Below are positions 11,866-13,666 of a stretch of DNA of 32,991 bases, piece after piece. Numbering within the stretch: the first letter of the stretch is position 1; every line of letters begins with the position of its first letter. The position numbers were made by a program, and so were the translations under genes. The DNA comes from an uncultured Cytophagaceae bacterium (GTDB lineage Bacteria; Bacteroidota; Bacteroidia; Cytophagales; Spirosomataceae). Where the stretch lies: NCBI GenBank assembly GCA_903933935.1, contig CAIZMB010000141.1:1-32991 (forward strand), in the 5' to 3' direction. The notes beneath the pieces are model-generated. The model made no database searches, was not told the DNA's origin, and worked only from the letters and a program-made list of their open reading frames with translations.

Positions 11866-12474
11866 ATGAAAGCAGAAGAAAGTCATTTGGCCAATTTGTT
11901 TCAATATGACGAGATTTATTGGGTGCCTGCTGATCGCGGATCGAATGATATGCAGTTGGCGAGCTCCCCTCAAACGATTGATTCAAATCAGGTTCAGGAT
12001 TCTTCTTCATCGCCCAAAGAAAATGAGGCTGGTCGAGCGGCGGCCAATCTACCCGAAACTATTGAGAATTCATTTGAGTCAGAGCCCTCTTTAGACGGGG
12101 AATCTTCCAAAAGCAATGTTCGTATTTCTACCCCTTGGGTTGTCATAGGCCATATATCAGAGCTAGAAAAATCGCGGTTGACCTTAATTTTTTCAGCTCC
12201 CCCCATGTTATTGTCGGCCAAAGATTGGAGTATTTATGAGCCTAAGGATGACGAAGAACCCATACTTTCCGAATTTGTTAAAAAGGCTGGGGCTAATAAA
12301 TTTATCTTTTTAGGCCAACAACCCGCTGTTTGGCAATCTGATTTTCACGTGACAGAATTGGTGCCATTGGAAGGTAAATTGGTTTATTTCTTCCCCCGCT
12401 TGATATCCACCTTGACGGATACTGAAAAATCATTAAAATTGGTTTTTTGGAATGCGCTGAAATCGATGATTTAA
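11866..12474 (+). CDS. Unrecognised protein with acidic/Ser-rich linker
   Basis: A 202-aa protein I cannot assign with confidence. Residues 1-30 form a short conserved-looking head (ANLFQYDEIYWVP), residues 35-85 are a low-complexity Ser/Glu/Asn/Asp linker, and 87-202 look like a folded alpha/beta domain ending in FWNALKSMI. The tail (GANKFIFLGQQPAVW, then a bulky ending) is loosely reminiscent of small Bacteroidota proteins related to the DNA polymerase III psi subunit, but that is a weak impression. It starts 3 nt after the purA stop, so it is almost certainly co-transcribed with purA. There is no signal peptide or membrane segment. Its 3' end faces a palindromic repeat cluster. Confidence 0.7.
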   Translation: MKAEESHLANLFQYDEIYWVPADRGSNDMQLASSPQTIDSNQVQDSSSSPKENEAGRAAANLPETIENSFESEPSLDGESSKSNVRISTPWVVIGHISELEKSRLTLIFSAPPMLLSAKDWSIYEPKDDEEPILSEFVKKAGANKFIFLGQQPAVWQSDFHVTELVPLEGKLVYFFPRLISTLTDTEKSLKLVFWNALKSMI

Positions 12475-12490
12475 GAAAGCGATATGTGTT

Positions 12491-12514
12491 GTAGAGTCGC
12501 GGTACCTCGCGTCT
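12491..12514 (+). repeat. REP-like palindromic repeat, copy 1
   Basis: A degenerate copy of an imperfect palindrome with core GACGCGATACTTCGCGTC. Here the core reads GAGTCGCGGTACCTCGCGTC (12495-12514), preceded by GTA. It lies 16 nt after the stop of the purA-linked gene and is in plus orientation, defined by the flanking GTAGAG. Confidence 0.7.
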
Positions 12515-12531
12515 GGTTTTCAATTCACATA

Positions 12532-12556
12532 GTAGAGACGCGATACTTCGCGTCTA
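12532..12556 (+). repeat. REP-like palindromic repeat, copy 2
   Basis: The clearest copy. The core GACGCGATACTTCGCGTC is at 12537-12554, preceded by GTAGA and followed by TA. The arms GACGCGA and TCGCGTC are perfectly complementary over 7 bases around a 4-nt loop. Plus orientation. Confidence 0.8.
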
Positions 12557-12607
12557 TTACTTGATTTACAAATTATTATTATTTCCCAAAGGTTGTGTGT
12601 GCAAATT

Positions 12608-12632
12608 TTAGACGCGAAGTATCGCGTCTTTA
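12608..12632 (-). repeat. REP-like palindromic repeat, copy 3
   Basis: The core GACGCGAAGTATCGCGTC at 12611-12628 is the exact reverse complement of copy 2's core. The right flank TTTA, read in reverse, gives TAAAGA, matching the TAGAGA flank of copies 1 and 2 with one change. Minus orientation. Confidence 0.8.
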
Positions 12633-12644
12633 CGAATAGGGTTT

Positions 12645-12670
12645 TTAGACGCGAAGTATCCGCATCTTTA
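12645..12670 (-). repeat. REP-like palindromic repeat, copy 4 at the tsaD 3' end
   Basis: Core 12648-12666 reads GACGCGAAGTATCCGCATC, copy 3 with one inserted C and one G-to-A change, so the hairpin arm is damaged. Minus orientation. Its conserved flank TTTA contains the tsaD stop codon (12668-12670). The four copies thus run plus, plus, minus, minus across about 180 bp between convergent genes. Confidence 0.75.
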
Positions 12671-13666
12671 CCAGGCGTATTTGGCTAATGGACTCACGTC
12701 TTGTCCGCAAAATTCTCCTGCTTCGAATTTGAAATGACCAGCCATGGCAATCATCCCAGCGTTATCGGTGCAATAGGAAAAAGCTGGGATAAAAACGTCC
12801 CAATGATTCTCTTCCCCTAATTCCTGCAACCTTTTTCGTAATCCTGAATTGGCAGATACCCCTCCTGCGATCGCGATGGAAGAACAATTTTTTTCACGCA
12901 TCGCCTTTTTGACTTTACGCAATAAAATTTCAATCAGTGTTTTTTGAACGGAAGCACAAATATCAGCCTTGTTTTCCTCGATGAAATTGGGATTTAATTT
13001 CACCTCTTTTTGGAGAAAATAAAGAATGGACGTTTTGATTCCTGAAAATGAAAAATCTAAGCCGGGCATTTCGCCCATGGGAAATGGGTATTTGTCAGGA
13101 TTTCCTTCTTTGGCAAGCTTATCGATCAATGGCCCTCCTGGGTAAGGAAGTCCAATTAATTTAGCTGTTTTGTCAAAGGCTTCGCCAACGGCATCATCCT
13201 GGGTTTCCCCTATGATTTGCATGTTGAGGGGGCCTTCCACCCAGACCAACTGTGTATGTCCGCCGCTTACGGTTAAACACAAAAATGGAAATTGGGGTCT
13301 GGGTTCTTCAATAAAATGTGCCAACACATGAGCTTGCATGTGATTTACCTCGATCAAAGGAATGTTTAAACTTAGTGCCAATGACTTAGCAAATGACGTT
13401 CCTACCATGAGGGCTCCAAGCAAACCGGGGCCTCGTGTAAATGCGATGGCATTCAAGTCATTTTTGTTTATATTTGCCTTTTGCAGAGCTTCCTGTACGA
13501 CAGGAATAATTGATTTTTGATGTGCCCTGCTAGCTAATTCGGGAACAACGCCACCCCACTCGCTATGAATTAATTGAGTGGAAATGATGTTTGATTTTAA
13601 CTCTCCGTCGACCATAATCGCCGCAGAGGTTTCATCACAAGAAGATTCAATGGCTAGTAAAATCAT
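12668..13666 (-). CDS. tsaD: tRNA threonylcarbamoyladenosine transferase TsaD
   Basis: TsaD transfers the threonylcarbamoyl group from TC-AMP to A37 of ANN-decoding tRNAs, with TsaB and TsaE, in the cytoplasm. The 332 aa match the family length. Motifs: ESSCDETSAAI at 7-17, GPGLLGALMVG at 79-89, the metal-binding NHMQAH with H109 and H113, VSGGHTQL, DDAVGEAFDKTAKLIGLPYPGGP, and AGGVSANSGLR and CTDNAGMIAMAG near the C-terminus. The start is fixed by the MILLAIESSCDET opening. The stop codon lies inside the flank of a palindromic repeat. The preceding C-terminal residues PLAKYAW look normal for the family, so function is probably unaffected. It is divergent from tamB with a 65-nt spacer. Confidence 0.97.
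   Translation of the reverse strand: MILLAIESSCDETSAAIMVDGELKSNIISTQLIHSEWGGVVPELASRAHQKSIIPVVQEALQKANINKNDLNAIAFTRGPGLLGALMVGTSFAKSLALSLNIPLIEVNHMQAHVLAHFIEEPRPQFPFLCLTVSGGHTQLVWVEGPLNMQIIGETQDDAVGEAFDKTAKLIGLPYPGGPLIDKLAKEGNPDKYPFPMGEMPGLDFSFSGIKTSILYFLQKEVKLNPNFIEENKADICASVQKTLIEILLRKVKKAMREKNCSSIAIAGGVSANSGLRKRLQELGEENHWDVFIPAFSYCTDNAGMIAMAGHFKFEAGEFCGQDVSPLAKYAW

Follow-up and report, generated by a model that had tools for sequence, protein, structure and literature searches.

A GTAG-type REP array centred on a REPIN between tsaD and a convergent gene in an uncultured Cytophagaceae bacterium

Results

The window (the whole stretch of DNA that was analysed, 32,991 nucleotides) is contig C141 of the source genome, G000, a 2.89 Mb assembly in 198 contigs that is rated 98.87% complete. 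Between two convergent genes of this contig, one of them tsaD, lie four REP copies with the following layout:

11866–12474, plus strand: convergent ORF of 202 aa, without an NCBIfam match
12491–12514, plus strand: REP copy 1, worn; GTAG tag, imperfect hairpin
12515–12531: spacer between copies 1 and 2, 17 nt; identical in sister genome G417 at the same locus
12532–12555, plus strand: REP copy 2, perfect hairpin; left arm of the REPIN
12556–12609: REPIN spacer, 54 nt; partly alike in G396, diverged in G417
12610–12633, minus strand: REP copy 3, perfect hairpin, GTAA tag; right arm of the REPIN
12634–12646: spacer between copies 3 and 4, 13 nt; G417 differs at one base
12647–12671, minus strand: REP copy 4, worn; its GTAA tag includes the tsaD stop codon TAA (12668–12670)
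12668–13666, minus strand: tsaD (tRNA threonylcarbamoyladenosine enzyme subunit); TIGR03723, 412 bits against a cut-off of 296

All four copies share the repeat unit GTARAGACGCGATACTTCGCGTCT. An initial annotation of this DNA had described four REP-like hairpins in the order plus, plus, minus, minus between convergent genes, and the coordinates and strands agree with that; of the span it gave, 12491–12670, the start stands and the end moves to 12671, the last base of the final tag. The cores of copies 2 and 3 are exactly complementary, as had been claimed, the 18 bases at 12537–12554 and 12611–12628 being identical on opposite strands. Mutations had been reported for the outer copies, and by eye we count three substitutions in the core of copy 1, and one substitution plus one inserted G in that of copy 4. 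The counterpart of copy 1 at the same locus of G417 is perfect. GTAG tags are present in two of the four copies and GTAA tags in the other two. The array had also been likened to a bacterial interspersed mosaic element (BIME). Two copies do face each way, but the alternating orientation that a BIME combines with regular spacing is absent, and the array is instead a REPIN of head-to-head copies, flanked at either end by one further tandem unit.

As single-stranded DNA, copies 2 and 3 each fold into a stem of 8 bp closed by the 4-nt loop TACT (−9.5 and −9.4 kcal/mol; z −4.3 and −4.1), and copies 1 and 4 fold more weakly (−4.3 and −4.9 kcal/mol; z −1.3 and −2.7). For copy 1 there is no clear gain over shuffled sequences, 23 of 200 of which fold equally well. 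Single-strand folding of the whole array joins copies 2 and 3 in one long hairpin (z −8.1, 200 shuffles), so that the inverted REP doublet and its spacer give the single hairpin that defines a REPIN. Five matches to microRNA families in Rfam were rejected, lying far under the gathering scores (best 30 bits versus 120).

Stable hairpins at copies 2 and 3, placed where two 3' ends converge, could also be bidirectional terminators or RNA-stabilising ends of both genes and be kept for that. A scan of 12400–12760 returned one weak terminator-like site, at worn copy 1, which does not exceed the 0.5 ± 0.7 found in shuffles; a GC stem followed by a T run, as in an intrinsic terminator, is not present, the perfect hairpins 2 and 3 having no T run.

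The 18-base core has five exact matches in G000, two of them inside the window, against approximately 2.6e-5 expected by chance (assuming 40% GC; the window has 39.4%). Allowing up to two mismatches gives 23 matches and none for a reversed-pattern control, far above chance. A tagged pattern likewise placed 23 copies, not the same set as these 23 core matches, on 10 contigs: all 23 are intergenic according to a simple ORF caller, and 21 carry the GTAG tag. Both the genome-wide search and the intergenic location therefore bear out what the initial annotation had expected, and the core is neither confined to this site nor present at chance level. Three copies without a GTA tag were left out of the placement (C49:22713, the second of C196 and the third of C109), and core matches at C185:12610 and at two more sites of C196 are beyond the reach of the tagged pattern. 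The 23 placed copies comprise 15 between codirectional genes, 5 between convergent genes, none between divergent genes and 3 at contig ends, and the predominance of codirectional neighbours argues against terminators.

Orientation within the groups is biased. Among 46 distinct neighbour pairs within 120 bp at the loci of the genus, 28 are tandem and 18 head-to-head, with GTAG outside (the REPIN arrangement); none is tail-to-tail. Inverted arms with a spacer, together with near-regular 38-bp tandem units of the repeat at some sites (C65), might also point to a MITE of another transposase family or to part of a CRISPR-like or integron array, a reading against which the mixed orientation and the GTAG tag speak. 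REP arrays were also seen at contig ends, in L038 and L043 (ends of C49 and C42) and in L160 (G403). With arrays in such positions, the count of copies probably falls short of the real one, and the assemblies may lack some RAYT units.

REPs of the GTAG kind are short elements that do not move autonomously: a cognate HUH tyrosine transposase (RAYT/TnpA-REP) cleaves and rejoins them as single-stranded DNA hairpins. As the initial annotation had stated, no RAYT lies in the window; the profile matches of G000 are all on other contigs. The best match of G000 to the RAYT clade profile A2 (see below) scores 96 bits and is a broken gene on C13, which is also the source of the only piece, at 51 bits, that the RAYT of a sister genome, G412, retrieves as a query. 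This gene was rejected as a partner, being broken and having no window-type REP in the 4.5 kb fetched for it. In L022 (1300–2100) it adjoins tandem TTGCCCTTGCACTAGAG units and a GGGCAACC-GGTTGCCC palindrome. A second RAYT-like gene, on C48, encodes 197 aa and matches NCBIfam REP_Tyr_transpos at 42 bits, under the cut-off of 80. It has NHYH and YIHNNP motifs and is bracketed in L020 (1150–2060) by AGCTTTACTAACTTT-AAAGTTAGTAAAGCT palindromes without a GTAG tag. Since this is a different palindrome and brackets the gene on both sides, the C48 gene was rejected as well; its palindrome occurs at 16 places in G000, both gene-flanking ones included. Y1_Tnp (PF01797) alone proved too weak a guide, with two matches, both under the cut-off; the one on C179 was rejected on the resemblance, by eye, of its ORF to a sugar-phosphate nucleotidyltransferase.

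The window's repeat is thus absent from the stretches fetched around both RAYT-like genes, and profile searches and searches with the G412 protein across the 198 contigs found no cognate RAYT bracketed by the window's REP. The array consequently looks orphaned in G000, an assembly so fragmented that it could hide a RAYT. Short-read assemblies are prone to losing RAYTs that lie between repeats, so absence from a genome in 198 contigs is weak evidence of true absence.

By a looser pattern, the REP palindrome is present in 27 of the 38 genus genomes (own included, many incomplete), in at least five copies in 19 of them. This count overturned the notion that the REP is unique to the source species, which had come from a strict pattern that gave zero in seven other genus genomes. 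G404 (95) and G399 (64) are rich in palindromes. Eight genomes have a single match, which may be chance, given that G390, G394 and G415 show one control match each.

We detected a cognate RAYT in 2 of the 38 genomes (own included). In G412, an intact 167-aa RAYT has two plus-strand REPs before it and two minus-strand REPs after it, the window's own order; in G396, a 166-aa RAYT has three REPs on one side and five on the other. The two proteins share 64% identity, and that of G412 is 39–46% identical to eight Hymenobacter/Spirosoma rows. In the alignment of these RAYTs (A3, 10 rows), the H-x-H and YI-NP columns are invariant and a D-R pair follows WQ; both genus proteins therefore carry the HUH motif and the tyrosine region of a Y1 transposase, and the RAYT profile matches TnpA-REP 4er8 (E 2.3e-5). 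The RAYT flanked by the same repeat that the initial annotation had proposed to look for, which is also what a REPIN/REPtron has in its own genome, hence exists in G412 and G396, and none was found in the 198-contig assembly of G000. That the same sequence brackets RAYTs in G412 and G396, and a close sequence does so in a related clade, makes a MITE or a CRISPR-like array highly improbable, the more so as the junction alignment of the tsaD locus shows, by eye, no target duplication.

Counting against mobility is how few genomes have a cognate RAYT that was detected, 2 of the 38, when 19 carry at least five palindromes. G392, with approximately 30 contigs and 98% completeness, likewise shows 16 palindromes without a cognate RAYT being found, which makes loss from the assembly a less complete answer, yet a possible one. 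The RAYT unit of G412 (L232 2999–4218) is located at the 3' end of an apparent relative of the window's glycosyltransferase-like gene 261–1478. The window contig runs 260 bases beyond that end of the gene, and an intact REP is absent there.

The locus itself exists in an alternative short state. tsaD is matched in 37 of the 38 genus genomes (own included), and the two stop codons are separated by 193 bases in G000 and by 10–11 bases in G392, G402, G416, G391, G393 and G418. G417 has the same array in the same order, with four perfect copies and the identical 17-nt first spacer, which has no other full-length match among the fetched loci. In G396 the order is one plus followed by three minus copies, and in G403 an array of four minus copies reaches the contig end. 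Six sister species with so few bases at the site show that the array is dispensable. Because these sisters do without it and the terminator scan does not exceed shuffles, termination is improbable as the cause of the array and possible as a side role.

A tree of tsaD, a single gene with three partial rows (G393, G417 and G418), groups G000 with G418 (support 0.85) and next with G392 (0.40), and G402 with G417 (0.79), so that filled and empty states of the locus interleave on it. The array may thus have reached the locus by recombination with a related species and not by REP movement on the spot: G000 and G417 share the inter-REP spacer, while G418 and G392 are nearer to G000 on the tree yet empty. 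We consider this rather unlikely. Several losses account for the pattern equally well, support at the relevant forks is modest (0.40 to 0.85, with the three partial rows), and the sequence that flanks the array of G000 on either side has its closest counterparts in G418, G392 and G402 rather than in G417, which leaves room for a very short exchanged piece at most. The array of G000 and G417 probably descends from a single insertion, followed by clean losses or short exchanges. A more tentative idea, which we put forward as a doubtful one, is that arrays of this order are modules gained and lost cleanly in genomes without a detected cognate RAYT, either through precise RAYT excision or through exchange of short intergenic pieces between species.

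Quite different palindromic repeats were seen at the tsaD junction of G410, G407, G397 and G409 (L163–L166). Judging by more distant members of the genus, the junction behaves as if it were a tolerant landing place.

Beyond the genus, RAYT loci were collected from 16 genomes of the order picked for many REPs, and one clade among them is bracketed by GTAGAGACGC REPs. Eight members of this clade were combined into profile A2. In 390 genomes of the order, the profile has 27 matches of at least 254 bits, spread over 25 genomes, the next best scoring 217; two matches, the second in G276 and the second in G300, are without a locus. An AGACGC-type hairpin stands on at least one side in 24 of the 25 clade loci fetched (Hymenobacter/Spirosoma) and on both sides in 20, one of which counts by a one-base variant arm only. 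Locus L147 has no such hairpin by the flank scan, yet three tag-and-arm words were counted there in the arm-type analysis. Two genomes were assigned by loci 100% identical to those of named species: g30 to Hymenobacter (L109 equals L293 of Hymenobacter armeniacus) and g3 to Spirosoma (L145 equals L321 of Spirosoma luteum).

Strict REPs are present in 60 of the 390 genomes, namely in 19 of 25 with the clade versus 41 of 365 without it (Fisher 2e-12; kinship ignored), an association that is partly circular because the RAYT profile came from REP-picked genomes. Without the 16 picked genomes, the figures are 10 of 16 versus 34 of 358 (9e-7; kinship ignored). The six clade genomes that lack strict REPs have variant arms beside their RAYT. 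Within Hymenobacter only (46 genomes), the link is not significant (15/16 versus 22/30, p 0.13; p 0.39 without the picked genomes); the median number of REP copies there is 20 with the RAYT clade versus 4.5 without. Arm type tracks the RAYT tree, with 7 changes versus a shuffled mean of 10.5 and 1 of 200 shuffles as low, in a test on 23 rows labelled by hand (L127, mixed, was labelled GA), from which L142, L143, L144 and L149 were dropped because no intact ORF was found in them.

A wide scan of species genomes with the RAYT alignment gave at least 573 confirmed candidates, the best 80 of which were examined. By a strict rule, an AGACGC-type GT-tagged hairpin flanks 27 of these best 80 on one side or both (12 on both), and the other 53 gave none. 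The 27 include Mucilaginibacter, which has the window's exact core, Pontibacter, Chloroflexi, Patescibacteria and a Methylomonas MAG. RAYTs flanked by the same or variant arms are therefore found in Hymenobacter, Spirosoma, Mucilaginibacter and others.

Like the tag of copy 4, other tags end a reading frame. In a set of fetched loci from several genera, 32 of 212 tags supply the in-frame stop to an ORF of at least 80 codons, other distances accounting for at most 6 each; double-foot palindromes were scored on each strand. The tsaD gene accounts for three of the 32, one in each of three species; worn copy 4 of the window is unmatched by the pattern and not counted. A tag that supplies the stop shows why such insertions can be harmless.

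Discussion

We interpret the array as a decaying mobile group of GTAG-type REPs centred on one REPIN, formed by copies 2 and 3 at a distance of 54 nt, with one REP outside each arm (probability roughly 0.88). A RAYT of the G412/G396 kind would have spread the copies in the past, with the REP single strand GTAGAGACGCGATACTTCGCGTCT as the putative substrate in the case of the G412 enzyme. Such a RAYT may once have acted in the lineage and since been lost, or may never have been resident, in which case as in the other the copies would be left only to erode.

REP spread is hard to watch, and the close relatives compared here show one and the same site empty, filled with intact copies and filled with worn ones. 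Together with two species of the genus that have the matching RAYT, these states make gain, loss and RAYT dependence testable within one genus. The clean pattern of presence and absence is the useful part of a feature that is otherwise ordinary.

REPs, REPINs and RAYTs are well described (Nunvar 2010; Bertels and Rainey 2011, PMC3116915; Corneloup 2021; Quentin 2018, PMC6006769; Di Nocera 2013, PMC3733652). The copy number in G000 (23) is low compared with REPs in Nunvar 2010, where genomes usually have more than 100 copies. With the GTAG REPs of PMC3733652 the repeats share the 5' tag at the foot of a short stem-loop, many dispersed intergenic copies, and head-to-head dimers and groups. The use of the tag as a stop codon is likewise already known, the GTAG ends of REPs often giving the TAG stop to flanking ORFs (PMC3733652). 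Unlike in that survey, which places GTAG repeats in Proteobacteria, Cyanobacteria, Chloroflexi and PVC and names CGTC repeats for Bacteroidetes, the GTAG type here sits in Bacteroidetes. The resemblance to the REPINs of PMC3116915, which are thought to be spread by a RAYT, lies in two inverted REPs with a spacer that fold into one long hairpin; the differences are the additional tandem REP on each arm and a cognate RAYT that was not found in G000.

Among the classes of RAYT/TnpA-REP in PMC6006769, the proteins of G412 and G396 are like subclasses 2.4, which is abundant in Cyanobacteria and Bacteroidetes, and 2.7, which occurs scattered over phyla, in their HUH-Y1, WQ and YIxxNP motifs and in the GTAG REPs around the gene; their D-R pair after WQ is given there as a trait of 2.5 and 2.7. 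The C48 gene of G000 resembles subclass 2.6 of the same study. A literature search on REPs in Hymenobacter gave no paper, and among the papers listed for RAYTs in Bacteroidetes we saw no description of the present REP family, which is not proof of absence. Since PMC6006769 reports GTAG REPs next to RAYTs from a subclass that is common in Bacteroidetes, the kind is known in the phylum, and the array of the window is a new member of this known kind of element.
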